Source: Crossiella cryophila (GTDB taxonomy: Bacteria > Actinomycetota > Actinomycetes > Mycobacteriales > Pseudonocardiaceae). Taken from it: DNA of 64,000 nt. Below the pieces are notes generated by a model. That model did no database searches and was not told where the DNA came from. It saw only the letters and a program-made list of their open reading frames with translations. Positions 4,846 to 38,407 of this stretch are shown here, piece by piece. The stretch spans positions 3,307,001-3,371,000 of the forward strand of contig NZ_JACHMH010000001.1 of assembly GCF_014204915.1 (NCBI RefSeq), in the 5' to 3' direction. Position 1 is the stretch's first letter. Each line of letters begins with the position of its first letter. Both the position numbers and the translations under genes were made by a program.

Positions 4846-5105
4846 GTGTTGGCCGTTGTGGGACGCCGGGTTGGCCGTTGTGGGACGGGGAGCCGCCGGG
4901 GCGGTGTGACCGGGGCGCCGCTTGGGGCCGTTCGGTGCCGGGTAGGGCCGCTTGAGGCTGACAGTCGAGAACAGTCTGGCCACGTGGCGTACGAGAACGG
5001 CCAAACCGGCGTACGAGAACGGCCAACACTCCGGGAGGGGTGTGGGTTTCAACCTCCGCGCGTGTTGGCCGTTGTCGTACCCAGTGTTGGCCGTTCTTGT
5101 ACGCC
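4846..5105. repeat. 22-bp repeat array I (six units, three pairs)
   Basis: Six copies of a 22-bp unit that reads GTGTTGGCCGTT, then four variable bases, then (G/T)ACG plus two bases. They form three exact 22-bp-spaced pairs: 4846-4867 and 4868-4889 on the plus strand, 4986-5007 and 5008-5029 on the minus strand, and 5062-5083 and 5084-5105 on the plus strand. The minus pair and the last plus pair point away from each other around a GGGTTTCAACC segment. No coding content is credible here. The array forms the left edge of composite element copy 1. Confidence 0.9.
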
Positions 5106-5175
5106 TTGGGCGACTGCGGCCGGGCGAAGCCCGGAGGAACGAGCAGTCGGGGTGGCTTTTCAACACTCCCCGAGC

Positions 5176-5324
5176 GGTTCCCCCATCCCCGTCAGCCTGG
5201 AGAGGACACACCACATCCCGGGTGCGCAGACCGCAACCTGCCGCCGCCCTAGCCTCTCAACCGCAACGGTCTGCGTGCCCGGGATGTGGTTTGGTATCGG
5301 AGGGCTGACGGGGATGGGGGAACC
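5176..5324. repeat. Long hairpin A, copy 1
   Basis: A 149-nt inverted repeat. The basal stem is a perfect 22 bp (5176-5197 with 5303-5324). Above it lies a purine/pyrimidine asymmetric internal loop (CTGGAGAGGACACA on one side, TTTGGTATCGGAGG on the other), an upper stem beginning CACATCCCGGG and ending with ACCG/CGGT, and an apical region containing CCGCCGCCCTAGCC. Copies 2 (22083-22230) and 3 (38050-38197, inverted) keep the loop and apical sequence but change stem bases in pairs. Confidence 0.9.
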
Positions 5325-5390
5325 GTACGAGCACTGCTCTTGCTCTTCGTCTTTGCTCTTGTCTTTGACTTTCCCCCCCATCCTTTGATT

Positions 5391-5503
5391 TCTGCCCGTC
5401 CGGCGAGGACGCTCTTGATCTTGACTTTCGTTCGGGTACCTCAGCAGCAGAGGCCACAAGCGTAAAGATCAAGAGCGGAAAAGATGGCCTCGCCGGCCGG
5501 GCA
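5391..5503. repeat. Long hairpin B, copy 1
   Basis: Inverted repeat with outer arms CTGCCCG (5391-5397) and CGGGCAG (5497-5503), continued by CCGGCGAGG/CCTCGCCGG and by CTCTTGATCTT/AAGATCAAGAG nearer the tip. The inner part has lower G+C than the surroundings. The inverted copy is at 37876-37982; only one arm remains at 22285-22323 and at 51104-51123. Confidence 0.85.
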
Positions 5504-5592
5504 GACCACCGGAGGGGGGAGGGCAAGTCAAACCCCGGGATGAGCAGGTTGCGGGGCTGGGCAGGCTGCCGGGGCCGGTTCCAGCGTGGCTC

Positions 5593-5758
5593 CGAGGGCT
5601 CGCGTGTTCTCCGCACGGCCTTCCGCAAGCCAACCACACCCCGAGGAGCGGCCCCCGTCACCTTGGGCGGGGTCGGCGGCGGATTGTGTTGCAGGGGCCG
5701 CTCCTCGGGGCGCGGTCAGCAAGCTCCAGGCCGTACGGAGAACACACGAGAACCCTCG
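5593..5758. repeat. Long hairpin C, copy 1
   Basis: Inverted repeat with outer arms CGAGGG (5593-5598) and CCCTCG (5753-5758), then GTGTTCTCCG/CGGAGAACAC and, past an internal loop, CCCCGAGGAGCGGCCCC pairing with GGGGCCGCTCCTCGGGG. The apical region holds GTCGGCGGCGG. Its plan (basal stem, asymmetric loop, very stable upper stem, GGC-rich tip) resembles hairpin A. The inverted copy is at 37620-37785. Confidence 0.88.
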
Positions 5759-5772
5759 TCGTGGGGTTTTCA

Positions 5773-5862
5773 CCCCAACCCCAACCCCAACCCCAACCCC
5801 AACCCCAACCCCAACCCCAACCCCAACCCCAACCCCAACCCCAACCCCAACCCCAACCCCAA
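5773..5862 (+). repeat. (CCCCAA)15 telomere-type hexamer tract
   Basis: Fifteen perfect tandem CCCCAA units follow GGGGTTTTCA and precede CCCCCGGCC. The complementary strand, TTGGGG repeated, is the ciliate telomere sequence type and would be expected to form G-quadruplexes. The matching position in the inverted copy near 37580-37605 has only about two units, so the tract has expanded or contracted since the copies diverged. It sits between genes. Confidence 0.95.
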
Positions 5863-5882
5863 CCCCCGGCCTGCGGCCTGCG

Positions 5883-5970
5883 GCCGTACAACAACCGCCA
5901 ACACTCCGTACGACAACGGCCAACACGGCGTACAAGAACGGCCAACACTCCGTACGACAACGGCCAACAC
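5883..5970 (-). repeat. 22-bp repeat array II (four units)
   Basis: Four consecutive units of exactly 22 bp on the minus strand: 5883-5904, 5905-5926, 5927-5948 and 5949-5970. The variable middle part alternates between the GTCG and CTTG types. The array ends 12 bp before the stop codon of the convergent 86-residue membrane gene. It corresponds to array V (37508-37573) in the inverted copy, which has three units. Confidence 0.92.
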
Positions 5971-5982
5971 GCCGGTTTGGGG

Positions 5983-6243
5983 TTAGGTGCGGAGGAGGAT
6001 GCTGGCTGCGGTGCCGGTGGCCAGGAGTACCGCGCCTGCCAGCGTCCACCACTGGCCGCGGGTCGCGTCCGCCAGGGCCGCCGATCCGAACAGCACTGCC
6101 GCCACGCCGCTCATCGCCCCGGCCAGCCCCGCCGCCAGCGGCCCGGTCAGGGTCGCGGTGATCGCCAGTAGCACCCCGAGCGTGACCACCGACCACGCCC
6201 AGGCGCGGGCTGGGCGTCCCGGTGCGCTGATCAGATCGTCCAC
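5983..6243 (-). CDS. Small three-helix membrane protein, unknown function
   Basis: 86 residues, mostly hydrophobic, with three predicted membrane segments at about residues 14-33, 36-56 and 62-83 separated by short loops. The composition and start (ATG 6243, read as 'MDDLISAP') look like genuine coding sequence. No recognised family. The gene is transcribed towards the repeat complex, whose array II begins 12 bp beyond its stop, and is divergent from the beta-helix gene. Confidence 0.6.
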   Translation of the reverse strand: MDDLISAPGRPARAWAWSVVTLGVLLAITATLTGPLAAGLAGAMSGVAAVLFGSAALADATRGQWWTLAGAVLLATGTAASILLRT

Positions 6244-6391
6244 CGGGCCGAAGGTAGTCCTCGAACACGCTGTGGCGTCACCACTTCAGGGATTCCGCAC
6301 GCCTGGCCGGGATCTTTGCCCGATCGGTGACTCAATCGTTTCCCCGCTGGTGCCGATGGTGATCAACATCGGTCTGCGGAAGGAGACGTGG

Positions 6392-7912
6392 ATGCTCGCC
6401 CGTCGTGCTGTGCCCGCCCTGCTCGGTGTCGTGGTGCTGGCCACGTCCCTGCTCGACGCGCCACCAGCGGCCGCGCAGACCCGTGACTTCCACCTGGACT
6501 GCTCGGCGGCCTGGCCGGGTACCGGGTCGGCCGACTCGCCCTGGCAGCGGTTGGACCAGGCCAATGGGTTCACCTTCCTGCCGGGGGATCGGCTGTTGTT
6601 GCGCCGGGGCACCGAGTGCGCGGGGGTGCTCAGCCCGCGCGGGTCGGGTGCGCCGGGGCGGCCGGTTCAGCTCGGGGCGTACGGCGAGGGTGGGAAGCCG
6701 CACATCGCGGGTGGGGGCGCGCGGGCCGCGGTGCATCTGCGCAACGTGCAGTACTGGGAGATCCGGGATATCCGGGTGAGCAACTTCGGGCCGCCGCCGG
6801 GGCCGGAGGAGCGACGCGCCGGGATCTACGTGACGCTGACCGACTTCGGGGTCGGCCACCACTACGTCGTGGCCGATGTCGAGGTGCACGACGTCAACGG
6901 CTCCGACCACAAGGATCCCGACCCCAGTGGCGGCATCCTCTTCGGCGCGCTGGGCGCGCTGCGGCCGACCCGGTTCTCCGACATCGTGATCGAGCGCAAC
7001 CGGGTCTCCCGGGTGGACCGGACCGGGATCGGCACCATCTCGCACTGGGCCCGCCGCGCCGAGCACCCGAACGGGCCCGGCAGCTCCTTCGCGCCGATCC
7101 GGGACCTGGTGGTGCGGGACAACGCGGTCACCGACGTCGGCGGCGACGGCATCGTGCCGCAGAACACCCTGGGCGCCCTGGTGGAGCGCAACCGGGTGCA
7201 CCAGTTCAACATGCGCTCCGCCGGCTGGAACGCCGGGATCTGGCCGTGGAACTCCGATGACACGCTGATCCAGTTCAACGAGGTCTCCGGCGGCTTCGGC
7301 ACCAGGGACAGCATGGCCTTCGACTTCGACGGCGGCTCCAGGAACGTGCTCTACCAGTACAACTACAGCCACGACAACGACGGTGGCGCGCTGCTGGTGT
7401 GCAACGACAAGGACATGGTCAACGACGGCGGCGTGTTCCGGCACAACATCAGCCAGCACGACGGGCACCCGGACGTCGCGGTGATCTCCATCGGCTGCGC
7501 GCGGGCGACCAACGTGCGCATCCACCACAACACCTTCTTCACCGGCCGGGACACCCGGCTGGTGGCCAACTACACCGACACCCAGATCGTGGCCGCCAAC
7601 AACGTCTTCGCCCGCGCCGGCGGCAGTTCGATGATCCAGGACCCGCACGGGCGCTACCTGGCCAACGCCTACTTCAACATGCCGGTGCCGGAGCGGGACG
7701 GCCGCGCGGTCACCGCGGACCCGCTGCTGCTCAACCCCGGCTCGGCCAGCGGACTGCTGGACCTGGGTGGCTACCGGCTGCGCGCCGGCTCACCCGCGTT
7801 GCGCGCCGGGGAGCCGGTGCAGGGTGCGGGCAGCCGGGACTTCTTCGGCAACCCGATGCCCAGCGTGCCCAACATCGGCGCCTACCAGGGACCGGGCGAA
7901 CTCGGCGACTGA
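6392..7912 (+). CDS. Secreted right-handed parallel beta-helix protein
   Basis: 506 residues. A Sec signal peptide (about residues 1-29, ending 'PPAAAQ') precedes a domain built of repeated short strands with 'N.V' turns ('IERNRVSRVDRTGIG', 'VRDNAVTDVGGDGIV', 'VERNRVHQFN', 'IHHNTFFTG'), the signature of pectate-lyase-like beta-helix proteins (Beta_helix / NosD class). Many relatives are polysaccharide lyases or hydrolases, but no catalytic triad can be assigned with certainty. ATG 6392 is chosen because AAGGAGA at 6380-6386 precedes it and the signal peptide begins there; the longer frame upstream runs antisense over the membrane gene. It may act on extracellular polysaccharide together with the downstream secreted glycosidases. 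Confidence 0.82.
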   Translation: MLARRAVPALLGVVVLATSLLDAPPAAAQTRDFHLDCSAAWPGTGSADSPWQRLDQANGFTFLPGDRLLLRRGTECAGVLSPRGSGAPGRPVQLGAYGEGGKPHIAGGGARAAVHLRNVQYWEIRDIRVSNFGPPPGPEERRAGIYVTLTDFGVGHHYVVADVEVHDVNGSDHKDPDPSGGILFGALGALRPTRFSDIVIERNRVSRVDRTGIGTISHWARRAEHPNGPGSSFAPIRDLVVRDNAVTDVGGDGIVPQNTLGALVERNRVHQFNMRSAGWNAGIWPWNSDDTLIQFNEVSGGFGTRDSMAFDFDGGSRNVLYQYNYSHDNDGGALLVCNDKDMVNDGGVFRHNISQHDGHPDVAVISIGCARATNVRIHHNTFFTGRDTRLVANYTDTQIVAANNVFARAGGSSMIQDPHGRYLANAYFNMPVPERDGRAVTADPLLLNPGSASGLLDLGGYRLRAGSPALRAGEPVQGAGSRDFFGNPMPSVPNIGAYQGPGELGD

Positions 7913-7994
7913 GCGGCACTGAGCAGGACCGGGCAGGACTGAGCAGTGGATGAGCAGTGGACCGGTCTGGGAAATGAGCAATCCCCGATCCCAT

Positions 7995-8032
7995 GATTCC
8001 CTCACCCCGGCGAAAGCGCCGGGCCAGGAATC
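7995..8032 (+). promoter_or_regulatory. Leader hairpin upstream of the YvgO-like cluster
   Basis: GATTCC (7995-8000) pairs with GGAATC (8027-8032), and CCCGGCG (8006-8012) with CGCCGGG (8017-8023) around an AAAG loop; a 5/3-nt internal loop separates the stems. The ribosome-binding site AGGGAG follows immediately (8033-8038) and the ATG is at 8045. Its position suggests control of translation, mRNA stability or termination before the secreted-protein cluster. This is inference from sequence only. Confidence 0.5.
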
Positions 8033-8044
8033 AGGGAGATCGAG

Positions 8045-8542
8045 ATGGGTTCCATTCAGAGGAAGCTGACCGCGGCCCTGCTCGGCGCCGCCGCCATCGG
8101 TGGCGCGTTGCTGCCGGTGGCCACCGCGCAGGCCGCCCCGGCCCCGCAGGAATCGGCGGTGGCGGCCGCGCAGGCGGCCGGGTTCAGCATTGACGTGACC
8201 AAGAGCGTCGTGGACATCACCAACCGGCTCTACGACATCATCAGCAATTCCATCGCGCACAACCAGAACCGCTCCGGTTTTGTGAACGGCATCATGGAGG
8301 GCTCCTTCTATGACGCCGGTCAGCGGTACAACGTGATGGTCACCAAGCAGAACCACCCGTACACGGCGAATCTGCACAACATCGTCTACGACGCCATCGT
8401 GCACAGCGGCTACCCCGATTTCCGGGTCATCGTCTTCGAATCCGGCACCTTCACCAATCGCGGCGACGGCGGGCACATCAACTGGGCCTTCCGCGGCTGG
8501 TTCACCCGTGACGGCATGACCGTCAACTTCCGCAAGCCGTGA
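8045..8542 (+). CDS. Small secreted YvgO-like stress/antifungal-family protein (paralogue 1)
   Basis: 165 residues with a Sec signal peptide (about 1-30, cleavage after 'ATAQA'). The mature part ends with the family signature: 'GTFTNRGDGGHINWAFRGWF' followed by 'R.G..V.FRKP'. This C-terminal pattern is that of the YvgO / 'stress protein' family; Bacillus YvgO has been described as an antifungal, salt-induced secreted protein. There are no cysteines in the mature protein. First of four tandem paralogues on one strand with gaps of 19-31 bp, preceded by a leader hairpin. Whether it kills, protects or binds is unknown. Confidence 0.75.
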   Translation: MGSIQRKLTAALLGAAAIGGALLPVATAQAAPAPQESAVAAAQAAGFSIDVTKSVVDITNRLYDIISNSIAHNQNRSGFVNGIMEGSFYDAGQRYNVMVTKQNHPYTANLHNIVYDAIVHSGYPDFRVIVFESGTFTNRGDGGHINWAFRGWFTRDGMTVNFRKP

Positions 8543-8570
8543 TGCCGGGATCGAATCGAAGGGACCAGTC

Positions 8571-9044
8571 GTGAAGCTCAAGGCGATGCTCGCCGCCCTG
8601 CCGTTGACCGCGCTGACCTTGCTCGGTGTGGCCGCCCTCCCCGCCCAGGCCGCCGAGGCCGGGACGATGTCCGTGCAGGGCGCCTCGGGTGCCGGGGTGA
8701 CCATCCACCTGGACAACGGGGCCAACGGTTTCCAGGTGGCCAACGCGATCAGCAACATCAACGAGGACAACCGTGGCAAGTTCGTGGAGAAGGCGGTGGA
8801 CACCGCGTTCGAGGTGAGCGGTGGTCGCTACAACGTCGTCATGATGAATCTCAGCCAGGGCTACAACGAACGGCTGACCGGCAAGAAGTTGTACGCGAAT
8901 GTCCGCTACGGGCACGTGAACTACGGCCTGTGGATCTCCGAGGCCGGACAGTTCACCAACAACGGCGACGGCGGCTGGATCAACTGGGGAATGCGCGGCT
9001 GGTTCGACCGCGATGGCAAGACCGTGAACTTCCGCCGACCCTGA
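8571..9044 (+). CDS. Small secreted YvgO-like protein (paralogue 2)
   Basis: 157 residues, GTG start with AAGGGA 7 bases upstream. Signal peptide about residues 1-27 ('ALPAQA' then 'AEAG'). It is the closest of the four to canonical YvgO proteins: 'RYNVVMMNLSQGYNERLTG' in the centre and the 'GQFTNNGDGGWINWGMRGWF' ending with 'GKTVNFRRP'. No cysteine in the mature part. It shares with paralogue 1 a 'NR(S/G)..V' segment preceding 'YNV'. Cotranscription with its neighbours is likely. Confidence 0.78.
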   Translation: MKLKAMLAALPLTALTLLGVAALPAQAAEAGTMSVQGASGAGVTIHLDNGANGFQVANAISNINEDNRGKFVEKAVDTAFEVSGGRYNVVMMNLSQGYNERLTGKKLYANVRYGHVNYGLWISEAGQFTNNGDGGWINWGMRGWFDRDGKTVNFRRP

Positions 9045-9075
9045 CCTTTCTCTCTGGCGTAAAGGACATCAAGAC

Positions 9076-9474
9076 ATGAGTATTCGGCAGAAAGTGGCCG
9101 GTTATGGCGCCGCGGTGCTGGCCATGGTCGGCGCGCTGAGTGTGGCGGCCCCGCTGGCCGCGCAGGCGGAGATCAATCCGTGCGATCTGGGCGTGAAGCT
9201 CCAGGAACTGCGCGGCTGGGACGCCAATGACCAGTACAACATCGTGGTGTGGAAATCGACCGCGCGGGAATCCAGCCATTTCAACGGGATCGCGCTCCAG
9301 GGGCATGAGACCGCGCAGGAGTGCAAGGGATTCTTCGGCAACACGGTGCACATCTTCTGGATGGTGTTCAAGGACGGCCAGTTCACCCGCAAGGGCGATG
9401 GCGGTTACCGGAACTGGGCGTTCAGCGGCCGGTTCGAGCGCAATGACCGGCACGTCAAGTTCCTGGCCCGCTGA
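9076..9474 (+). CDS. Small secreted YvgO-related protein, cysteine-pair type (paralogue 3)
   Basis: 132 residues; signal peptide about 1-31 ending 'AAQA', then mature 'EINPCDLG'. It keeps the C-terminal signature ('GQFTRKGDGGYRNWAFSGRF', then 'R.DRHVKF') but is shorter than paralogues 1 and 2 and has two cysteines ('NPC' and 'AQEC'), probably one disulphide after export. AAAGGA lies 9 bases before the ATG at 9076. Very similar in plan to paralogue 4, so this pair arose by tandem duplication after the two subtypes diverged. Confidence 0.72.
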   Translation: MSIRQKVAGYGAAVLAMVGALSVAAPLAAQAEINPCDLGVKLQELRGWDANDQYNIVVWKSTARESSHFNGIALQGHETAQECKGFFGNTVHIFWMVFKDGQFTRKGDGGYRNWAFSGRFERNDRHVKFLAR

Positions 9475-9493
9475 GCAGACGAGGACAAGACCC

Positions 9494-9898
9494 ATGAAGA
9501 CCAAGACGATCGCCACCCGCGGGCTGACCATGCTCGCCCTGGCCGGCGCCCTGGCCGTGGCCGCCCCGCAGGCCGCGGTGGCCGCGGAGTTCATCAACCC
9601 GTGCAACCTGTCCGAGAAGATCGACGAGCTGCAGGGCTTCGGCTCGGACAAGTCCAAGAACATCGTGGTCTACAAGGCCACCGCCTGGGGTGGCGGGCAC
9701 TTCAACGACATCGTCACCCAGGGCACCGCCAAGGCCGTGCCGTGTGCGAATGCCTTCCCGCGCAACCACGACTACCACTGGGTGGTGTTCAAGGGCGACG
9801 GCGAGTTCACCCGCAAGGGCGATGGCGGTTTCCGGAACTGGGCCTTCTACGGCAGCTTCGACCGCAACGACAACGTGGTGAAGTTCCACCGCCGATGA
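9494..9898 (+). CDS. Small secreted YvgO-related protein, cysteine-pair type (paralogue 4)
   Basis: 134 residues from ATG 9494 (GAGGA 9 bases upstream). The signal peptide ends near 'AAVA' and the mature protein begins 'EFINPCNLS', matching paralogue 3. The signature 'GEFTRKGDGGFRNWAFYGSF', then 'RNDNVVKF', closes the protein; two mature cysteines ('NPC', 'VPC') are kept. Last gene of the cluster; a strong terminator follows 8 bp after its stop. The frame is open further upstream but only the signal-peptide start makes sense. Confidence 0.72.
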   Translation: MKTKTIATRGLTMLALAGALAVAAPQAAVAAEFINPCNLSEKIDELQGFGSDKSKNIVVYKATAWGGGHFNDIVTQGTAKAVPCANAFPRNHDYHWVVFKGDGEFTRKGDGGFRNWAFYGSFDRNDNVVKFHRR

Positions 9899-9905
9899 CC
9901 ACCCG

Positions 9906-9945
9906 GGATGCGGGGTGGGGCAATGGGTGCCCCCACCCCGCATCC
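9906..9945. terminator. Bidirectional terminator between the YvgO-like cluster and the GH3 gene
   Basis: Perfect 15-bp stem: GGATGCGGGGTGGGG (9906-9920) with CCCCACCCCGCATCC (9931-9945), 10-nt loop. It lies between two convergent genes (stops at 9898 and 9951). Confidence 0.8.
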
Positions 9946-9950
9946 GGCCG

Positions 9951-21768: not shown

Positions 21769-21789
21769 CCCAAACCAAGATCATCCCGA

Positions 21790-22559
21790 GTGTTGGCCGT
21801 TGTCGTACGGAGTGTTGGCCGCTTTGGTACGGAGTGTTGGCCGTTGTGGGACGCCGGGCGGGCGAAGCCCGGAGCGGGGAGCGTTGGGGGCAGGCGGGCG
21901 AAGCCCGGAGGCTGGCGGCTGGGCGGTTAGAACTGTTGTGGGCGGGCGGAGCCCGGAGCGGTGAGCGTTGCGGGCAAGCGGGCGAAGCCCGGGAACGCTG
22001 CGGCTAGGCCGTTAACACGCGCCGCGACCGGGCGAAGCCCGCACACAGGCAGCCGGGGTGGCTTTTCAAACCCCACCTGAGCGGTTCCCCATCCCCGTCA
22101 GCCTGGAGAGGACACACCGCATCCTGGGCGCGCGGACCCGCAACCCGCCGCCGCCCTAGCCACCCAACCGCACGGGTCCGCGCGCCCAGGATGTGGTTTG
22201 GTATCGGAAGGCTGACGGGGATGGGGAACCGCACGAGCACTGCTCTCTGCCCTTGACTTTGAACCTCCCCCCATCCTTTGATTCCTGCCCGTCCGGCGAG
22301 GACGCCCTTGATCTTGATCTTCCGCTCGTGAACCAACCCGCCCACACCGGCCAACACCCCGTACAACAACGGCCAACACGCCGTACCAGAACGGCCAACA
22401 CGCCAAGGCTTGAGAACCCCCACCGGAGTGTTGGCCGATCTCGTACACCACGTCGGCAGTTACGGACGAACGACGGACCCCCCAGACACCCCCGAACACC
22501 CACAACGGCCAACCAGGTGTCCCACATCGGCCAACACCCCGTACAACAACGGCTAACAC
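21790..22559 (+). repeat. Composite repeat element, copy 2 (truncated), with arrays IIIa and IIIb
   Basis: Array IIIa has three exact 22-bp units on the plus strand (21790-21811, 21812-21833, 21834-21855). A leader (21856-22060) holds five CGGGC-GAA-GCCCG type hairpins, four exact (21859-21871, 21895-21907, 21979-21991, 22029-22041) and one variant. Hairpin A follows, then one arm of hairpin B (22285-22323). Hairpin C and the hexamer tract are missing. Array IIIb then carries minus units (22358-22379, 22380-22401, 22516-22537, 22538-22559) and one plus unit (22428-22449). The region separates the helicase from the xylF promoter. Confidence 0.85.
22083..22230. repeat. Long hairpin A, copy 2
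   Basis: 148 nt. The basal stem is a perfect 21 bp (22083-22103 with 22210-22230): one C fewer on the left and one G fewer on the right than in copy 1. The upper stem reads CCTGGGCGCGCGGACCC on the left and its exact complement on the right, different from the other copies yet fully paired. The internal loop and the apical CCGCCGCCCTAGCC are the same as in copies 1 and 3. Confidence 0.9.
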
Positions 22560-29493: not shown

Positions 29494-29522
29494 GCACCCG
29501 GGAACTGAGACCGGCACGGCAA

Positions 29523-29558: not shown

Positions 29559-29578
29559 CGTGTTGTTCGGGCCGGAAC

Positions 29579-30889
<1,311 letters not shown>

Positions 30890-31044
30890 GTACGCCCTTT
30901 CGCGGGGATCGTTCACTGGCAGGCCAAGGGCGCGAACCTAGGCCGCCGGAGTGTTCGGGGGAGCGCCCCCGGCGCAGAGTGCCGCGGGCGTCCACCATTG
31001 TAACGACGGGCCTGGCCCGGCCGTTGCGGGCCAGGAAAGGGAAA

Positions 31045-31803
<759 letters not shown>

Positions 31804-31857
31804 CCCCGTGGTCCTTCCTGTTCGATTCAGAAACGTGGTGCGCAGACCATAACGGTC

Positions 31858-32721
31858 ATGTGGTCGTATGGTCCCGTGGGTCTGGCTGATGAGGTACCGA
31901 CGTTGGTGGATCCGGCCCGGTTGCGCACCGTCGCGATCGAGGTCGCGAGCGCGGCAGGCGAGCTGGTCGCGGCCATGAGAGGTGGTCAGCGGCGGTTTTC
32001 CGGCGCGGTGGACACCAAGAGCACCGCGACCGACGTGGTCACCGCGGCCGACCGCGCCGCCGAGGAGCTGATCCGGTCCCGGCTGGCGGAACTGCGTCCC
32101 GCCGACGGCGTGCTCGGCGAGGAAGCCGGTGACGACGCCGCCGGCGCCAGGGTGCGCTGGGTGGTCGACCCGATCGACGGCACGGTGAACTACCTCTACG
32201 GCCTGCCGCAGTACGCGGTCTCGGTGGCCGCCGAGGTGGACGGCATCGCGGTCGCGGCCTGCGTGGTCGAACCCGCGGCGGGCCGGGTGTGGAGCGCGGC
32301 ACGCGGACAGGGCGCCACCCTCGACGGCGAACCGCTGCGCGCCTCGGCCACCGTCGAACTGCCGTTGACGCTGGTCGCGACCGGTTTCGCGTACAAGGTC
32401 GAGCGACGAGGGCGGCAGGCCGACCTGGCCGCCCGGCTGGCCAGGAGCGTGCGCGACCTGCGGCGCAGCGGCTCGGCCGCGATCGACCTGTGCTCGGTGG
32501 CGGCGGGCTGGGTGGACGCCTATTTCGAGCACGGGCTCGGGCACTGGGACTGGGCGGGCGGCGGGCTGATCGCCGAAGAAGCCGGGGCGGTGCTGCGGCG
32601 GCCGAACGCGGACGGTATCGATCCGGACGGGCTGGGCGCGGACCTCACCCTCGCCGTGGCCCCAGGGGTGGCGGCAGAACTGACAGAACTACTGCGCCGC
32701 TCCGGAGCCGCCGAGATCTGA
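31858..32721 (+). CDS. suhB: Inositol-monophosphatase-family protein (SuhB-like)
   Basis: 287 residues. Metal-binding motifs of the Li-sensitive phosphatase superfamily are present: 'GEEAGDD' (Glu), 'VVDPIDGTVNYLYGLP' (DPIDGT), and the C-terminal 'GLGHWDWAGGGLIAEEAG' (WDxAG). It would dephosphorylate inositol monophosphate or a related sugar phosphate. ATG 31858 is used; GTG 31876 is a plausible alternative because a CATAAC -10-like hexamer lies only 5 bp before the ATG. Array IV follows its stop. Confidence 0.9.
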   Translation: MWSYGPVGLADEVPTLVDPARLRTVAIEVASAAGELVAAMRGGQRRFSGAVDTKSTATDVVTAADRAAEELIRSRLAELRPADGVLGEEAGDDAAGARVRWVVDPIDGTVNYLYGLPQYAVSVAAEVDGIAVAACVVEPAAGRVWSAARGQGATLDGEPLRASATVELPLTLVATGFAYKVERRGRQADLAARLARSVRDLRRSGSAAIDLCSVAAGWVDAYFEHGLGHWDWAGGGLIAEEAGAVLRRPNADGIDPDGLGADLTLAVAPGVAAELTELLRRSGAAEI

Positions 32722-32743
32722 AAAAAGCCGCGTCGGCCGACCG

Positions 32744-32809
32744 GGCGTACCGGATCGGCCAACGCGGCGTACGAGTTCAGCCAACGCGGCGTACGAGTTC
32801 GGCCAACAC
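32744..32809 (-). repeat. 22-bp repeat array IV (three units, no hairpins)
   Basis: Three consecutive exact 22-bp units on the minus strand: 32744-32765, 32766-32787, 32788-32809. The middle parts are of the CTCG/CCGG types not common elsewhere. It fills the junction between the convergent suhB-like and Cei-like genes, ending 8 bp before the latter's stop codon. No hairpin A, B or C is present, so arrays occur independently of the composite element. Confidence 0.9.
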
Positions 32810-32816
32810 ACCGTGC

Positions 32817-33494
32817 TCAGCAGTGCACGTTGCGTGCGCTCGCGAGCTGGTCGGCGTCGAGTTGCGGGGGTGGCGGCGCGGCCTGCTGGCCGCCCTTCTC
32901 GGGCTGCTGCTCGGCCCATTCCTTGAGCTTGTCCATCAGCTGGCGGGTGCTCGGCGCGGGCTTGATCCCGTCGAACTTCTTGCCGAGCACCACGTCGATG
33001 GTGGAGTCCTGACGCTCGTCCCGCACCAGCTGCACGCACGGCGCCAGCAGGCTCATCGTGCGGGCCGCACCGGCCCCGTTCGGGCCGTAGCGGAGCTGGC
33101 CGTGGCAGCTGAGCTTGTCCCCGTAGACCGGGTCATCGCCCGGCTCACCGGCCTTGTTGAAGCCGAAACCGATCAGCTCCTCGTTGACCAGTTTCGCCTG
33201 TCCGCGCAGGCCACCGCCATTGAGCACGCGAATCTTCACATCGGCCGCCGGCCACGGATCGGTCTTGTCCAGCGCGTCCCTCGGCTGGCCCTGGCCGTTG
33301 TAGGGGGTCTTGCCGGCCTCCACCGCCGGGGGCCCGTCACAGCGGACCGCGGCCTCCACGTCGTCGACGTTGCGGAAGACCTTGCTCCACACGAACGTCG
33401 CTATCACACCCAGCAAGGCCAGGATGATCAGCGCCGGTAGCGGGCGTCGCCTCCGATAACGTCCGAGGCCCTGCCTCACGCTCCCCGCTGCCAC
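32817..33494 (-). CDS. Envelope integrity protein Cei-like, LytR_C domain
   Basis: 225 residues from GTG 33494. A basic N-terminus, one membrane helix (about 20-40), then an extracellular LytR_C-type domain ('ADVKIRVLNGGGLRGQAKLVNEELIGFGFN'). The C-terminal region is Gln/Pro-rich and ends in cysteine. The position next to suhB and DUF4193 matches Mycobacterium tuberculosis Rv2700 (Cei, cell envelope integrity). It probably supports cell-wall or virulence-lipid attachment; exact role unknown. Confidence 0.85.
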   Translation of the reverse strand: MAAGSVRQGLGRYRRRRPLPALIILALLGVIATFVWSKVFRNVDDVEAAVRCDGPPAVEAGKTPYNGQGQPRDALDKTDPWPAADVKIRVLNGGGLRGQAKLVNEELIGFGFNKAGEPGDDPVYGDKLSCHGQLRYGPNGAGAARTMSLLAPCVQLVRDERQDSTIDVVLGKKFDGIKPAPSTRQLMDKLKEWAEQQPEKGGQQAAPPPPQLDADQLASARNVHC

Positions 33495-33852
33495 GTCCTC
33501 CGCCCTCCCCGGCGTTGTCCGCCATCGCCTGTACCCACGTCGACGATCAGCCTAGGCGGTAACGGCTCGGCATGCGTGACCAGTTTCGTCTTCCTTGTCG
33601 GCCGATGGGGTGCTACTGGCCACATCCACCGCGCTTCCGGGTGACCCAGTGAACGCGACTGGCCGCGATGGGCTACCCTCTCGGCGCTCCGGCCCGCCGG
33701 TAAGCCGATTTACCTGATCGACTTCTCCGGTGGCACCGAGTTCTCGAAGAGAGACGGCCGTCACTGGGGACGGCGGGCACAAAACGGTGCGCTGGAACGT
33801 TAACCAGCGGCACGAACCACCATCTTGAGCAAAACGCAGGGGTGACTACACG
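33495..33852. other. Divergent intergenic region, 358 bp
   Basis: Separates the starts of the Cei-like gene (minus) and the DUF4193 gene (plus). A short open frame on the minus strand has no ribosome-binding site or recognisable product and is rejected. Promoters for both genes must lie here; no operator was identified. Confidence 0.5.
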
Positions 33853-34152
33853 ATGGCGACCGACTACGACGCACCGCGCCGTGGCGAGACCGACGACCTC
33901 GCCGAGGACTCGCTTGAAGAGCTGAAGGCGCGGCGTAACGAGACTCAGTCCGGGGTGGTCGACGTCGACACCGACGCGCCGGACGAGAACTTCGAGCTGC
34001 CCGGCGCCGACCTGTCCGGCGAGGAGCTGACCGTCAAGGTGCTCCCGAAGCAGGACGACGAGTTCACCTGCTCCCGCTGCTTCCTGCTGCACCACCGCAG
34101 CCGGTTGTCCAGGGAGAAGGCCGGGCAGTACATCTGCCGCGACTGCGACTGA
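33853..34152 (+). CDS. DUF4193 protein
   Basis: 99 residues. The N-terminus 'MATDYDAPRRGETDD' and an acidic centre lead to a C-terminal zinc-ribbon-like part, 'DEFTCSRCFLLHHRSRLSREKAGQYICRDCD', with two CxxC pairs. This is the conserved actinobacterial DUF4193 (Rv2699c type). Role unknown, though the metal site suggests nucleic-acid or protein binding. A strong terminator follows. Confidence 0.92.
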   Translation: MATDYDAPRRGETDDLAEDSLEELKARRNETQSGVVDVDTDAPDENFELPGADLSGEELTVKVLPKQDDEFTCSRCFLLHHRSRLSREKAGQYICRDCD

Positions 34153-34159
34153 GCGGGCA

Positions 34160-34190
34160 CGGGCACCAGCCTGGGGATGGCTGGTGCCCG
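34160..34190. terminator. Terminator downstream of DUF4193 gene
   Basis: Perfect 12-bp stem CGGGCACCAGCC (34160-34171) with GGCTGGTGCCCG (34179-34190) and a 7-nt loop, 7 bp after the stop codon. Confidence 0.8.
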
Positions 34191-34235
34191 GACCGACGGT
34201 CGTTCCGGCGGCGTCAACGACGCCGTCCGCGGTAC

Positions 34236-34401
34236 CTAGGGCGTGTCCGCAAAGCCACGCACGCGATAGCCGCGCCGAGGCGGCCCCTGGCGGCACGGCC
34301 GGACCGCCCGAATACGCCCGGTATGAGGGCGGCCCGGCCGCGCCACCAGGAACCACCTCGATCACGACTCTCGCCCACGCGGCTCCGCGGACACGCCCTA
34401 G
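34236..34401. repeat. MITE-like palindromic element with 15-bp terminal inverted repeats
   Basis: CTAGGGCGTGTCCGC (34236-34250) is repeated perfectly inverted as GCGGACACGCCCTAG (34387-34401). Inside, CTGGCGGCACGGCCG pairs imperfectly with CGGCCGCGCCACCAG around a low-complexity tip, so the whole 166 bp can fold back. There is no coding capacity. It lies between convergent genes, and its right end supplies the TAG stop of the DUF3093 gene. Similar GGGCGTGTCCG-ended elements are recalled from other actinomycete genomes; that is memory, not a search. Confidence 0.75.
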
Positions 34402-34898
34402 TGGGCGGACTTCGCCGCCAGTTCGCGCAGCAGTCCGGCCAGCTTCTCCGCCTGCCGGACGCTGAAGATCCAGTACGGGGTGGGGTCGTCCGGGTCGGTC
34501 AACTCGACCAGTACCGCGGGTCCGACCCAGCCCTGGTGCGCCACGAACGCGGCCGGGTCCAGGTCCCGGCCCAGCGCCGGGCGCTTCTCCTCGGCGTTCA
34601 GCGTGCTGACCCTGCCGACGAACTCCAGCGGCAGGTGGGCCTCGCCCACCCACAGCTCACCGCCCTTGACCTGCACCTGCCGCCTGCCCAGCCACAGCAT
34701 GGTCACCACGACCAGTGGCACCAGCAGCAGGTACGGCAGCCAGGAGCGCACCCCCGGGTAACCCATGTGGATCTCCGCGGCCAGCAGCACCGCACCGGCC
34801 AGGGGTAGCGGCCAGCCCCACCACGGGAGGTAGAGCCGCTCACTGAAGAGGACATCCCCGGTCGTATCGACCGCGCGCGCGTTCCTGCTCACGGGCAT
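34398..34898 (-). CDS. DUF3093 membrane protein
   Basis: 166 residues with two adjacent membrane helices (about 24-45 and 50-70; '[21 protein letters not shown]'), then a cytosolic domain ('[37 protein letters not shown]') typical of DUF3093 (Rv2698 type). Divergent from dut with 7 bp between start codons. Its stop codon lies inside the terminal repeat of the MITE-like element, so the natural C-terminus may have been altered by that insertion. Confidence 0.88.
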
Positions 34899-34905
34899 CA
34901 GGGTA

Positions 34906-35421
34906 ATGTCGCCCGCCGTGCCCAGCGTTGAGGTGCTCCTGACCCGGCTTGATCCGGATGTGCCCGTCCCGTCCTACGCCCGTCCCGGCGATGCCGGCGC
35001 CGACCTGGTGACCACCAGCGACCTGGTGCTGCCACCCGGCGAGCGCGCGGTGGTCGGCACCGGGGTGGCGATCGCGCTGCCCATCGGGTTCGCCGCCTTC
35101 GTGCACCCGAGGTCCGGGCTGGCGGCCAGGGCCGGGCTCAGCGTGGTCAACACGCCTGGCACCATCGACGCGGGCTACCGCGGCGAGATCAAGATCTGTC
35201 TGGTCAACCACGACCTGCGCGAACCGATCAAGCTGCTCCGCGGCGACCGGATCGCGCAGCTGGTCATCCAGCGGGTCGAACAGGCCGAGTTCCGCGAGGT
35301 CGCCGAGCTGCCCGAGTCCGTGCGCGGTGCGGGCGGCTACGGGTCGACCGGGGGAGCCGCGGCACTGGCCGGGCAGCGAGCCGGGCAGCACGACGGCTCG
35401 CCTGATGTGACGGAGGTCTGA
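34906..35421 (+). CDS. dut: Deoxyuridine 5'-triphosphate nucleotidohydrolase (dUTPase)
   Basis: 171 residues. The trimeric dUTPase motifs are in order: 'PGDAGADL' (I), '[29 protein letters not shown]' (II and III, with the catalytic Asp), '[11 protein letters not shown]' (IV), and a C-terminal 'GAGGYGSTG' (V). It hydrolyses dUTP to dUMP and keeps uracil out of DNA. ATG 34906 or GTG 34918 may be the start. Followed by the DUF3710 gene 4 bp later. Confidence 0.95.
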
Positions 35422-35425
35422 GGGG

Positions 35426-36058
35426 ATGTTCGGGTTCGGGCGGCGCGGCAAGCGGCGCAAGGCGGCTGGCGAGCAGGCAGGCGGCGGGGAACACCTCGAG
35501 CCGGCCGGCGAGGCCGCCGAGGAGGGTTTCGACGGGCCCTACGACGAGCGTGAGGCGCCCGCGGACCAGGTGTCCCGGCTGGATCTCGGTTCGATCCGGG
35601 TGCCGGTGCCCGACGGCACCCAGCTCCAGGTGGAGGTGGCGCCGGAGGGCGAGGTGCAGGCCGTGCACCTGGTGACCCCGGTGGCCAGGCTCACCGTGAG
35701 TGCTTTCGCCGCCCCCCGATCGGGTGGGCTGTGGCAGGAGGTGCACAAGGAGCTGGCCGAGCAGCTGCGCAACGACGGCGCCCGCGTGGTGCTGGAGGGC
35801 GGGGACTGGGGCACCGAGCTGGTGGCCTCCTCGCCGGAGATGTCGCTGCGCTTCGTCGGCGTGGACGGGCCGCGCTGGATGCTGCGCGCGGTCGCGGCCG
35901 GACCGACCGAGCACTCCGCCGCGGCCGGGGAGGCGCTGCGCGAGATCGTGCGCGGCACCGTGGTCGTGCGCGGGGAATCGCCGCTGCCGGTGCGCACCCC
36001 GCTGCCGCTGGAGCTGCCGGACGCGATCGCCAAGCACCTGGCCCAGGAACAGGGCTAG
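35426..36058 (+). CDS. DUF3710 protein
   Basis: 210 residues. A very basic start ('FGFGRRGKRRKAAGE'), an acidic linker, then the conserved domain from about residue 50 ('RLDLGSIRVPVPDGTQLQVEV', 'LWQEVHKELAEQL'). Corresponds to Rv2696c, next to dut in mycobacteria. Function unknown; no membrane segments. Probably cotranscribed with dut. Confidence 0.92.
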   Translation: MFGFGRRGKRRKAAGEQAGGGEHLEPAGEAAEEGFDGPYDEREAPADQVSRLDLGSIRVPVPDGTQLQVEVAPEGEVQAVHLVTPVARLTVSAFAAPRSGGLWQEVHKELAEQLRNDGARVVLEGGDWGTELVASSPEMSLRFVGVDGPRWMLRAVAAGPTEHSAAAGEALREIVRGTVVVRGESPLPVRTPLPLELPDAIAKHLAQEQG

Positions 36059-36147
36059 AGAAACCGCACCCGGGCCCGGATCGGGGTCCGGGTGTGATCT
36101 GGCCTGCTGTGCCCAAACACACCCCCGCCGAGCAGGGCGAATCAGCC

Positions 36148-36174
36148 GGGAACTTTGTCCCGTTTGTAGGCGTT
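36148..36174 (+). promoter_or_regulatory. ECF sigma-type promoter upstream of the OB-fold gene
   Basis: GGGAAC (36148-36153) and CGTT (36171-36174) are separated by 17 bp. This matches the consensus recalled for the SigE/SigH/SigR stress sigma factors of actinobacteria (GGGAAC/T, 16-18 bp, CGTT). It is 119 bp before the ATG of the OB-fold gene and suggests that this gene and the following DUF3159 gene are stress-induced. Confidence 0.5.
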
Positions 36175-36292
36175 CTAAACGGTGTAACCGCCGGTCAGCC
36201 CGTCTGGAGTAAAAGTAACCCCAGATGGTTACCCTGGCGGAATAACGGGGCCACAACCGAGGGCCCCTTTCGTGTACTGGGAGCGCCGGAAA

Positions 36293-36667
36293 ATGAGTGG
36301 CAGCGGGGGCTACTGGCGGCGGATGGTCCGCAAGCTGACGAGTGACGTCAGTGAGCTGGACGCCGATGACCTGTCCCGAAAAGCCGAGGCACAGGGCGCC
36401 GTGAAGGCGTGCGACTGCCGATCCGGCGAGGAGGTCACCGTGCTGGGCAGGCTGCGCAGCGTGGAGCTGTGCCCGCGCGACGCGGTGGCGACCCTGGAGG
36501 CCGAGTTGTACGACGGCACCGAGGGGGTCACCCTGGTGTGGCTCGGCAGGCGCCGCATCCCCGGTATCGAGCCGGGCCGCACGATCAAGGCGCGGGGGCG
36601 GATCGCGGTGCGGGACGGGCGTAAAGTGCTCTACAACCCGTACTACGAGCTGCAGACCACCTCCTGA
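36293..36667 (+). CDS. OB-fold nucleic-acid-binding domain protein
   Basis: 124 residues from ATG 36293 (an in-frame start at 36272 is possible). The core 'GEEVTVLGRLRSVELCPRDAVATLEAELYDGTEGVTLVWLGRRRIPGIEPGRTIKARGRI' is a single-stranded-nucleic-acid-binding OB fold of the RecG-wedge-like type (Rv2694c type). No nuclease motifs. Possibly cotranscribed with the DUF3159 gene, which starts 11 bp downstream. Confidence 0.88.
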   Translation: MSGSGGYWRRMVRKLTSDVSELDADDLSRKAEAQGAVKACDCRSGEEVTVLGRLRSVELCPRDAVATLEAELYDGTEGVTLVWLGRRRIPGIEPGRTIKARGRIAVRDGRKVLYNPYYELQTTS

Positions 36668-36677
36668 TCGTGAGCGT

Positions 36678-37469
36678 ATGAGCGAACCCACCACTCCGCA
36701 GGCCGGTCCGACCGCCGCCGTGCCGGAGCATCCCGAGTCCCCGGACCCCAGGTCCGCCGATCTCGAACCCGCCAGGAGCGCCACCGAGGACGCTGTCACC
36801 GAGGATGCCGTGGCAGAGCCCGAAGAGCCCCCCATGCCCACCATGTGGGAGCAGATGGGCGGCCTGGTCGGCTTCATCTCGGCCTCCGTGCCCGTCGCGG
36901 TGTTCGTCTTCGTCAACTGGGCCACCAGCATGTGGCCGGCGATCTGGAGCGCCCTCGGCGTGGCCGTGGCGATCGGCCTGTGGCGGCTGATCCGCAAGGA
37001 GAAGCTGATGCCCGCCGTCTCCGGCGTGCTGGGCGTGGGCATCGCCGCGTTCATCGCCTACCGGGTCGGCGAGGCCAAGGGCTTCTTCCTGTACGGCATC
37101 TGGGTCAGCCTGATCTTCGGCGGCCTGTTCCTGGTCTCGCTGCTGGTGCGCTGGCCGTTGGTGGGCGTCATCTGGTCGGGGCTCAACGGGCACGGCTTCG
37201 GCTGGCGCGAACATCCCAAGGCGCGCTTCGGGTACGACCTGGCGACGGTGTTCTGGACGCTGGTGTTCGCGGCCCGGTTCGTGGTGCAGAACTGGCTGTA
37301 CGAGGGCGATCAGACGACGCTGCTGGGAATCACCCGGCTGGCCATGGGATATCCGCTGACGGCGATCGCCCTGCTGGTGACGGTATGGGCGGTCCGGCGC
37401 GCGAAGCAGATCGAGGAGAACCACAACCAGGCCATCACGGCCCAGCCCACCGGCCTCAACTCAGCCTGA
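36678..37469 (+). CDS. DUF3159 membrane protein
   Basis: 263 residues. An acidic, Pro-rich N-terminus (about 1-52), then about five or six membrane helices (from 'MGGLVGFISASVPVAVFVFVN' onward), with the DUF3159 segment 'ARFGYDLATVFWTLVFAARFVVQNWLY'. Conserved in actinobacteria at this position (Rv2693c type). Role unknown. It ends at the 38-kb repeat complex. Confidence 0.9.
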   Translation: MSEPTTPQAGPTAAVPEHPESPDPRSADLEPARSATEDAVTEDAVAEPEEPPMPTMWEQMGGLVGFISASVPVAVFVFVNWATSMWPAIWSALGVAVAIGLWRLIRKEKLMPAVSGVLGVGIAAFIAYRVGEAKGFFLYGIWVSLIFGGLFLVSLLVRWPLVGVIWSGLNGHGFGWREHPKARFGYDLATVFWTLVFAARFVVQNWLYEGDQTTLLGITRLAMGYPLTAIALLVTVWAVRRAKQIEENHNQAITAQPTGLNSA

Positions 37470-37619
37470 CCCCACCCCCACAACGGCCAACACCCGGTTC
37501 AGTCCGCGTGTTGGCCGTTCTTGTACGCCGTGTTGGCCGTTGTCGTACGGAGTGTTGGCCGTTGTTGTACGGCCGCAGGCCGGGGGTTCGGTTTGGGGTT
37601 GGGGGTGAAAACCCCACGA

Positions 37620-37785
37620 CGAGGGTTCTCGCGTGTTCTCCGTACGGCCTGGAGCTTGCTGACCACACCCCGAGGAGCGGCCCCTGCAACACAAACCGCC
37701 GCCGACCCCGCCCAACGTGACGGGGGCCGCTCCTCGGGGTGTGGTTGGCTTGCGGAAGGCCGTGCGGAGAACACGCGAGCCCTCG
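37620..37785. repeat. Long hairpin C, copy 3
   Basis: 166 nt, outer arms CGAGGG (37620-37625) and CCCTCG (37780-37785), upper stem CCCCGAGGAGCGGCCCC with its complement. Same length as copy 1. The ACCACACC/GGTGTGGT closing part pairs better than in copy 1. Confidence 0.88.
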
Positions 37786-37875
37786 GAGCCACGCTGGGTC
37801 CGGCCCCGGCAGCACAATCCCCGCCCCGCAACCTGCTCATGCCGGTTCTTGATCTGCCCTCCCCCCTCCGGTGGT

Positions 37876-37982
37876 CTGCCCGGCCGGCGAGGCCATCTTT
37901 TCCGCTCTTGATCTTTGCGCTTGTGGCCTCTGTTGCTGAGGTACCCGAACAAAGATCAAGATCGTCCTCGCCGGACGGGCAG
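37876..37982. repeat. Long hairpin B, copy 3
   Basis: Outer arms CTGCCCG (37876-37882) and CGGGCAG (37976-37982), inner arms TCTTGATCTTTG and CAAAGATCAAGA. A few bases shorter than copy 1. Confidence 0.85.
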
Positions 37983-38049
37983 AAATCAAAGGATGGGGGG
38001 GAAAATCAAAGACAAGGGCAAAGAAGAAGAGCAAGAGCAGTGCTCGTAC

Positions 38050-38197
38050 GGTTCCCCCATCCCCGTCAGCCTTCCGATACCAAACCACATCCCGGGCAAG
38101 CAGACCGTGCGGTTGGCAGGCTAGGGCGGCGGCAGGTTGCGGTCTGCTTGCCCGGGATGTGGTGTGTCCTCTCCAGGCTGACGGGGATGGGGGAACC
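38050..38197. repeat. Long hairpin A, copy 3
   Basis: Basal stem of a perfect 22 bp (38050-38071 with 38176-38197). Upper stem CCCGGGCAAGCAGACCG with an exact complement at 38138-38155 or thereabouts. Inverted relative to copies 1 and 2, with the conserved asymmetric internal loop and the CTAGGGCGGCGG apex on this strand. Confidence 0.9.
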
Positions 38198-38263
38198 GCT
38201 CGGAGAGTGTTGAAAAGCCACCCCGGCCACCTGTCCGGGCTTCGCCCGGTCGCAGTCGCCTAT

Positions 38264-38407
38264 GGCGTACAAGAACGGCCAACGTGGTGTCCCACATCGG
38301 CCAACACTGGGTACGACAACGGCCAACACGCGCGGAGGGTTGAGGGTTGAAACCCTCGTCGGCGTGTTGGCCGTTCTGGGACGGTGTGTTGGCCGTTCTT
38401 GTACGGC
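38264..38407. repeat. 22-bp repeat array VI (divergent units around a palindrome)
   Basis: Minus units at 38264-38285, 38286-38307 and 38308-38329 and plus units at 38364-38385 and 38386-38407, with a degenerate one continuing to the TrkA stop codon. Between the two groups lies GAGGGTT-GA-AACCCTC (about 38343-38358), a perfect small palindrome. The same palindrome sits at the centre of the 51-kb array. Confidence 0.9.

Follow-up and report, generated by a model that had tools for sequence, protein, structure and literature searches.

Several gene junctions in a 64,000-nucleotide stretch of the chromosome of the soil bacterium Crossiella cryophila (the window) carry similar foldable sequences, which raises the question of what the repeated unit is and whether it is a mobile element or an RNA structure that serves its host. 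A sequence-only reading had described a three-hairpin composite (hairpins A, B, and C) in two complete inverted copies, one truncated copy, and one relic. All three hairpins were recovered in copy 1 and in the inverted copy 3, which are 92.5% identical over 653 aligned columns (5120-5770 and, inverted, 38249-37608; Table 1). As described, copy 2 (22.0 to 22.3 kb) has A, only the 5' half of hairpin B, and no C; it belongs to a repeated short form and is among 17 copies with a common 3' end. The relic at 51.1 kb keeps a start box and a 5' box, inverted, and lacks C in addition to A, whose absence had been noted; an A-less junction like it is also seen in genome G108 (L044). As proposed, all four copies are intergenic, three of them at convergent junctions and one at a tandem junction; the gene to the right of copy 1 is assigned to the minus strand from a reading frame conserved in a congener (G055), where the GC3 gene caller had placed a plus-strand ORF. 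Pfam scans of 50 chosen ORFs of the window, a few alternative ORFs being left out, likewise found no transposase, integrase, RAYT, or reverse transcriptase. In copy 1, a consensus scan found no promoter, and a terminator scan returned one terminator-like site (shuffle mean, 1.6), which is not the mini-hairpin described below.

Table 1. Element copies, their parts, and adjoining repeats in the window.
Feature	Position	Strand	Remarks
Copy 1, complete long element	5149..5776	+	Inverted module pair GGGGTGGCTTTTC..TTTTCACCCC; 37-copy alignment
Start box of module A	5149..5161	+	GGGGTGGCTTTTC, conserved
Hairpin A, copy 1	5176..5324	+	Lower (22-bp) and hypervariable upper (19-bp) stems separated by a conserved irregular 13x13 middle; apical loop
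3' box of module A	5392..5422	+	Mini-hairpin GTCC-GGCGA-GGAC (5398-5410) and T-rich tail
3' box of inverted module	5483..5504	-	Mini-hairpin GGCC-GGCGA-GGCC; stem covaried, loop unchanged
Hairpin C, inverted homolog of A	5604..5745	-	Pairing better on minus strand
(ACCCCA)15.8 tract	5772..5866	+	Adjoins copy 1, outside core
22-bp repeat array	5883..5974	+	Repeat family of its own, adjoining copy 1
Copy 2, short element, one module	22055..22330	+	Hairpin A 22083-22230, 3' box 22285-22330
Copy 3, complete long element, inverted	37602..38224	-	Between convergent genes 36678-37469(+) and 38425-39762(-)
Relic	51075..51171	-	Start box and 3' box, hairpin A missing; junction CCCCATCC
22-bp repeat arrays	51297..51462	.	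Adjoin relic; separate family

On the 10.06-Mb chromosome, the 640-bp three-hairpin long element is present in at least 37 full-length copies, and a short form with hairpin A and without C occupies 24 further places, the chromosome total being about 100 intergenic modules. These numbers are lower bounds because the own-genome BLAST search scored just 40 of 296 candidates. Chance is excluded, since a 34-nt pattern of the hairpin A arm occurs at 64 genome sites (45 exact) and a 32-nt pattern of the hairpin C arm at 37 (36 exact), versus no match in the control. Fifteen of the 19 inexact A arms carry one single variant, and there are almost no decayed copies among the 64, a scarcity that fits per-copy selection as well as gene conversion. 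The termini of the long element, GGGGTGGCTTTTC and TTTTCACCCC, are conserved across the 37 aligned full-length copies and also in the copies of the congener, where the outer flanks are unrelated. At the 3' side of the short form, 17 of 24 copies share an identical end, one (L322) continues into long-element sequence, and six stop nearby. The elements encode no protein of their own.

The three-hairpin element is thus real; the basic unit, however, is not three hairpins but one polar module of about 280 nt, consisting of the start box, a hairpin of about 150 nt, a mini-hairpin with a GGCGA loop, and a T-rich tail. The large hairpin has a conserved irregular middle and an upper stem that is hypervariable yet self-complementary. 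Modules are found singly or as inverted pairs; reversed hairpin C has its apical loop and middle motifs in common with hairpin A, and in the long form the same module is present twice, in inverted orientation, with the mini-hairpins inside. The 3' box with the GGCC-GGCGA-GGCC stem of the inverted module has 34 sites in the genome. The 22-bp and CCCCAA arrays, which had been counted in, are outside the conserved core, although 22-bp repeats flank most C. cryophila copies. Among the 37 full copies, only copy 1 has a long CCCCAA tract (15 units); the runner-up has 4 units. The 22-bp repeat has 743 genome sites (0 in a reversed control) and is found no more than 150 bp from the left end in 30/37 and from the right end in 28/37 copies; the corresponding values in the congener are 1/13 and 0/13.

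The case that the fold is kept by compensatory changes, in one reading polarity per module, is strong. Covariation was counted in 44 of the 64 distinct A hairpins, chosen to span variants, and in all 36 distinct C hairpins found by regular expression. Hairpin A has 41 pairs, and 99.3% of 1783 cells are paired (12 unpaired, 43 G·U); doubly changed cells number 219 against a shuffled mean of 80.5, and none of 500 shuffles was as high. For hairpin C, taken in module polarity, the values are 105 and 33.0, again with 0/500 shuffles as high. Two further measures for hairpin A gave a null result (further pair types, 28 versus 29.4 shuffled) and a weak one (pairs with a double change, 15 versus 12.8 shuffled; 4/500 shuffles reach 15). 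Read on the top strand, hairpin C has 41/1187 unpaired cells (96.5% paired), versus 6/1188 on the bottom strand (99.5% paired); the mismatches that remain are G·T when each module is read in its own polarity, indicating that it functions as one folded strand of RNA or of single-stranded DNA (ssDNA). In other genera, once Crossiella loci and near-duplicates are removed, the count of 9 G·T against 2 A·C, with 7 other mismatches, is only suggestive of polarity (P = 0.065; 28 G·T against 4 A·C before removal). The T fraction at 169 distinct other-genus sites, which include some matches in unrelated taxa, is 0.49 in the 13 nt past the mini-hairpin versus 0.14 further downstream.

The earlier suggestion of a dispersed non-autonomous element or a structured RNA is therefore borne out by the dozens of copies, the lack of a protein, sites that are empty in a relative, the covariation, and the single-strand polarity. 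As the best explanation we consider, with a probability of roughly 0.55, that the modules form a new family of large, REP/BIME-like, non-autonomous dispersed intergenic elements in the Pseudonocardiaceae, mobilised in trans as a folded strand. The substrate for new copies would be a module in its folded single-stranded form, most likely as the template of the lagging strand or as a transcript, and trans-acting machinery may recognise it by the irregular, conserved mid-section of its hairpin; gene conversion would keep older copies alike, and copies would persist chiefly at convergent junctions, a location that leaves promoters unharmed. More tentatively, they may represent a previously unknown class of mobile element whose sole content is a folded single-strand module (RNA or lagging-strand ssDNA), moved by host or trans machinery other than Y1, PF00078 reverse transcriptase, or IS110, with gene conversion homogenising tens of loci while the stems drift by compensatory change.

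The position of the copies relative to genes bears on the main rival to this mobile-element reading, a selected RNA role at 3' ends. Convergent junctions hold 25/39 long copies and 12/14 short copies with both genes called, versus a background of 229/1060 gene pairs in the congener; flanking genes were taken from the GC3 script, and 9/23 short copies have no call on at least one side. The preference is weaker in other genera (15/40), where 28/41 single modules with a called upstream gene point the same way as that gene, both counts including some matches in unrelated taxa. The convergent placement of the long copies and this co-orientation, together with the G·U polarity, the T-rich stretch, and the near-perfectly conserved arms, are in keeping with an element that serves the host: the giant hairpin on read-through transcripts would shield or process the mRNA end, the mini-hairpin and T-rich tail would end transcription, and the inverted pair would serve two convergent genes. 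Such a role is possible but doubtful, as modules in tandem contexts face with and against the genes about equally (6 versus 5 for long copies, 12 versus 9 in other genera, 2 versus 0 for short copies), the mini-hairpin stem is merely 4 to 5 bp and was not flagged by the terminator scan, 10/13 sites are empty in the congener, and 260/297 family genomes yielded no match to the box pattern.

The empty sites were scored in 1.6 Mb of the congener, where the two flanks of 13 C. cryophila copies could be assigned to a single location; of these copies, 10 correspond to empty and 3 to occupied sites, and an empty site may reflect either gain or loss. L028 was dropped, its flank matches lying 600 kb apart, and copies mapped on one side only (L010, L016, L020, L027, L029, and L036) were not counted; L027 ends beside an element of the congener. 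Five element sites are common to both congeners. No target-site duplication was established at element sites. In a four-gamete test, 2386/2926 site pairs were positive, and the copies recombine with one another.

The element is not confined to this locus. Its 3' box is present in 37/297 Pseudonocardiaceae genomes, the pattern not being found in the other 260, with 0 to 71 copies per genome and a patchy distribution inside genera; it was absent from all 318 genomes of the order outside the family. Long matches to the core, among the 80 listed of 120 stretches, were to Crossiella sp. SN42, while plasmids and phages gave no match to the core and IMG/VR none to the box. A search for a mobile gene shared by the insertions had been suggested; the 828 ORFs examined around 214 loci revealed no autonomous partner, and the largest neighbour-protein clusters (18 proteins at 15 loci and 11 proteins at 11 loci) are both without annotation. 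No insertion sequence with the element ends was met by the two arm patterns in the C. cryophila genome, and A and C are inverted. Known mobilisers, tallied by hand according to box status, were rejected. Y1/RAYT occurs in 5/37 box genomes versus 56/260 others, with no association; the C. cryophila genome has just an 82-position piece with a stop, and G055, G086, G278, G194, and G158 have none. IS110 occurs in 23/37 versus 169/260, its transposase being absent from G055, G086, G145, G158, and G278. Reverse transcriptase (PF00078) occurs in 17/37 versus 114/260 and is absent from the box-rich genomes G278 (55 copies) and G145 (15 copies).

The modules are also oriented relative to replication: 44/64 C. 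cryophila copies are co-directional with the fork (P = 0.004), the bias being weak for short copies alone (15/24), and in the congener the count is 20/24, or 20/25 once a 136-bp piece is included (P = 0.004). This fork-oriented bias would suit a bacterial SINE-like retroposon, in which a trans-acting reverse transcriptase turns the module RNA back into DNA, as would the RNA-like polarity with its T-rich 3' tail and the two intact 589-aa reverse transcriptase frames of the C. cryophila genome; given the distribution of that enzyme across box genomes, however, we consider this improbable. Still less probable is a chromosome-structure or replication site acting as an oriented motif in topology or nucleoid binding: the fork orientation would suit it too, and only 1/40 long copies is less than 1.3 Mb away from the computed terminus, but short copies are not depleted there (5/24), and the box was not found in most sampled family genomes or in any outside, a patchiness not expected of a host-essential site. 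REP/BIME proper, moved by a REP-associated tyrosine (Y1) transposase, shares palindromic, intergenic, high-copy, inverted-pair, and fork-oriented features but is highly improbable, being already contradicted by the Y1 distribution and by a module of about 280 nt instead of 20 to 40.

About 100 modules in one genome, recurring across genera known for antibiotics, have no earlier description that we found in the literature, although one may exist in a subscription paper. They offer a test case for the spread of bacterial non-autonomous repeats without RAYT, and their many stems are a natural experiment on compensatory evolution in one polarity; finding their mobiliser or RNA partner would reveal a new protein activity.

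Comparison with known systems gave no match to a named family. The bacterial structured RNAs of Rfam 15 are alike in their covarying stems and conserved loops, but the window has no match reaching a gathering score, and all nine matches of six loci at E values up to 5 are below it. Pneumococcal BOX elements, like other MITEs, are modular, dispersed, and foldable and have no ORF, and a MITE of a DDE insertion sequence has terminal inverted repeats as in its autonomous partner and a target-site duplication. The present elements share the former traits; unlike MITEs, they have no link that we found to a known insertion sequence, their terminal hairpins are inverted and have an irregular middle, and their 3' tail is T-rich. 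The integron attC site is a folded single-strand unit whose structure and strand asymmetry are kept while the stem sequence is free and the terminal stem variable; the modules behave in the same way, but they lie outside cassette arrays and have a different box and tail. REP/BIME/REPIN units are GTAG- or CGTC-tagged and about 20 to 40 nt long; according to PMC3733652, whose main text contains none of four words for actinobacteria, the CGTC REPs, too, lack a dedicated transposase. Compared with these units, our elements have a two-storey hairpin plus a second mini-hairpin in a far longer module, end in GGGGTGGCTTTTC and a GGCGA box with a T-rich tail rather than in these tags, and sit in an actinobacterial family without Y1 association; like REPs, they are intergenic, palindromic, and present in many copies, with a polar unit that is tagged at one end and forms inverted dimers.

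This repeat family is built from a folded, polar module whose behavior resembles that of a giant REP/BIME; the module consists of a start box, a giant hairpin, and a 3' box in which a mini-hairpin is followed by a T-rich tail. The long element carries two modules and the short form one. The window covers 3307001-3371000 of the single-contig, 10.06-Mb genome. A BLASTN search of this genome with copy 1, the complete long element at 5149..5776 of the window, found much of the element at about 40 places (a lower bound, with 40 of 296 candidates scored), bearing out the dispersal expected by the sequence-only reading. In 37 copies, 590 bp or more of the 651 bp is present; the 36 besides copy 1 are 80 to 94% identical to it. 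Three more are partial (L038 to L040). Genome-wide arm-pattern searches, with controls of 0, located 64 3' arms of hairpin A, 45 of them exact across 34 nt, and 37 of hairpin C, of which 36 match exactly across 32 nt. The A arms outside the 40 long places define 24 short-form places (23 fetched plus the window copy at 22055-22330); 17 share the 3' end CTGCCCGTCCGGCGAGGACG..CTTGAT..CGCTC(G/T)TG and diverge beyond it, six end nearby with other letters, and one (L322) continues into long-element sequence. The window copy, earlier taken for a truncated element, is instead one of the 17.

By sequence comparison, the long element is an inverted pair of modules. Stretch 87-197 of the congener (G055) element, within A, has its counterpart in the C region, read from the opposite strand (e.g., 79% at G055 2289082-2289192), the A motifs CCTGGAG and GTGGTT..CGGAAGG recur in reversed C, and many copies have the apical loop CAACCTGCCGCCGCCCTAGCC in both. 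Each half of what had been called hairpin B is present and is the 3' box of one module. The constant loop GGCGA of the mini-hairpin in each 3' box is closed by a GTCC/GGAC stem at 63 own sites and by a GGCC/GGCC stem at 34 own sites in inverted orientation; searches with three permuted loops yielded 1 to 5 matches across all groups. The T fraction of the tail is 0.41 to 0.62 in four groups, versus 0.07 to 0.18 farther downstream; the spacer upstream of the box of own module A is equally T-rich (0.41), and that of other genera is not (0.17). The element ends GGGGTGGCTTTTC and TTTTCACCCC are found again in congener copies despite unrelated outer flanks. In a second subtype (seven congener copies and one in another family genome, G086), the irregular middle is closely similar and the 28-bp lower stem wholly different. 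TGTCAAG-like strings are common to the upper stems of otherwise different hairpins (L333, L332, L113, L070, and G055 L206-L215), so these hypervariable stems are not random. Boxes in Saccharothrix (L092, L110, L114, L115, L144, and L152) are paired facing outwards, with about 350 to 530 bp between them, the reverse of the dimer seen in the long form of Crossiella.

For 13 own copies, both flanks map to one place within 1.6 Mb of the congener; 10 of these sites are empty, by gain in one genome or loss in the other, and three are occupied. At nine empty sites the matched flanks lie -13 to 207 bp apart, and the tenth (L023) holds 982 element-free bp. Five sites in total are common to the two genomes (L002-L215, L019-L201, L022-L197, L033-L213, and L035-L209); at the orthologous junction L035-L209 the element is inverted between the species. 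The first hairpins of L035 and L209 belong to different subtypes. Shared-site partners are about 75% identical (two alignments covering the element alone), compared with the 80 to 94% of own copies to copy 1. When biallelic sites of the 37 full copies are compared pairwise, all four combinations are present in 2386 of 2926 pairs, a count that recurrent and compensatory change may raise; so large a share indicates that copies recombine with one another, a process that can account for the lack of decay in old ones. We favor mobility with gene conversion, at a probability of roughly 0.55.

Where both neighboring genes were called, 25 of 39 long copies (of 40, partial included) and 12 of 14 short copies (the window's short copy, in tandem context, lying outside the 14) sit between convergent genes, as do modules at 15 of 40 places in other genera, against a baseline of 229/1060 adjacent gene pairs in the congener. 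In tandem contexts the two orientations are close to balanced, the module running with and against the genes at 6 and 5 long copies, 12 and 9 in other genera, and 2 and 0 short copies; when all contexts are pooled, 28 of 41 other-genus modules have an upstream gene in their own orientation. Promoter avoidance accounts for most of the placement pattern. With dnaA at 1.152 Mb, 29/40 long and 15/24 short copies are co-directional with the fork (together, P = 0.004). The congener, its origin placed by synteny, gives 20/24, or 20/25 with a 136-bp piece included (P = 0.004); because of the five common sites, the two tests are not fully independent.

Over 44 distinct A hairpins, pairing holds in 99.3% of 1783 cells, and 219 are doubly changed against 80.5 on average after shuffling (none of 500 shuffles as high), although the hairpins are related copies and the covariation counts are not independent events. 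Slid controls were 35 to 49% paired, the structure being derived from the same sequences, which favors the true register. Pairs with a double change gave a weaker signal (15 versus 12.8; 4/500) and further pair types none (28 versus 29.4). For 36 C hairpins, 41 of 1187 cells are unpaired on the top strand and 6 of 1188 on the bottom; the bottom strand has 105 doubly changed cells versus 33.0 and 25 further pair types versus 19.2 (both 0/500). Hairpin A has 43 G·U and 12 unpaired cells on the top strand. Given the inversion of C, each module tolerates G·U when read in its own polarity, and A·C hardly at all. This polarity cannot be accounted for by a role as double-stranded DNA alone and fits RNA or single-stranded DNA alike. 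In 26 nonredundant hairpins of other genera, 9 G·T versus 2 A·C (P = 0.065) run in the same direction as Crossiella, inconclusively. A selected RNA 3'-end role is possible, if rather unlikely, as the main account; it is compatible with mobility and gene conversion, and both can hold. An RNA-intermediate retroposon, which the same polarity would fit, is improbable.

Mobiliser candidates and the 3' box were compared in the same 297 family (Pseudonocardiaceae) genomes, the split by box status being tallied by hand. Y1/RAYT (5/37 box genomes versus 56/260 others), reverse transcriptase (17/37 versus 114/260), and IS110 (23/37 versus 169/260) were rejected as mobiliser; all three are absent from G278 and G145, family genomes with 55 and 15 boxes. 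The host genome has two equal-scoring 589-aa reverse transcriptase frames (G000:C1 6225418 and 7606826). At three mismatches or fewer, the box occurs in 37/297 genomes and 9/46 genera, with 0 to 71 copies, patchily within genera and with no control match among those listed. A slightly stricter pattern found it in 6/79 family genomes and 0/318 outside the family in an order-wide sample; since neither pattern picks up diverged boxes, a lack of matches does not prove absence. Among the matches listed, box plus upstream hairpin also occurs in Amycolatopsis, Saccharothrix, Pseudonocardia, Prauserella, and Saccharomonospora. Plasmid and phage collections held no match to the element core, and viral contigs none to the 3' box.

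The 22-bp repeat (GTGTTGGCCGTTNTNGTAC..) has 743 genomic sites (reversed control, 0), often in inverted pairs. Its array had been counted as part of the element but lies outside the conserved core; it adjoins most own full copies (left 30/37, right 28/37) but only 1/13 congener copies on the left and 0/13 on the right. Several empty congener sites are inverted 22-bp repeat pairs between convergent stop codons. The 22-bp sites listed for the own genome, which run up to 3.38 Mb, leave the stretch from 0.40 to 1.74 Mb around dnaA free. Two other repeated hairpins were seen in the 1.6 Mb of the congener, one with an arm like GTCGTGCGTTCGTG... (seven copies) and one with arms like CGGTNGATT..TTTGGTTTGGGG (four copies).

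Positions of other repeats
Feature	Sequence	Positions
22-bp repeat	window	5883-5974, 21788-21847, 22344-22404, 32733-32807, 37508-37572, 38267-38424, 51297-51462
~67-bp hairpin family	G055	1.24-2.84 Mb (L225-L304), e.g., 1855964, 1858274, 1871895
~126-138-bp hairpin	G055	1830926, 2583911, 2613893, 2703236

With many copies, no protein of its own, and empty sites in the congener, the element is dispersed and probably non-autonomous, one of the two alternatives first proposed. Directly observed are its anatomy, its covariation and polarity, the number of copies, the vacant congener sites, and reassortment between copies; a mobilising enzyme and a transcript are putative. The module departs from REP in size, tag, and Y1 association and is therefore not classed as REP; like REP/BIME, it is intergenic, dispersed, arranged in inverted pairs, fork-oriented, and without a protein of its own.
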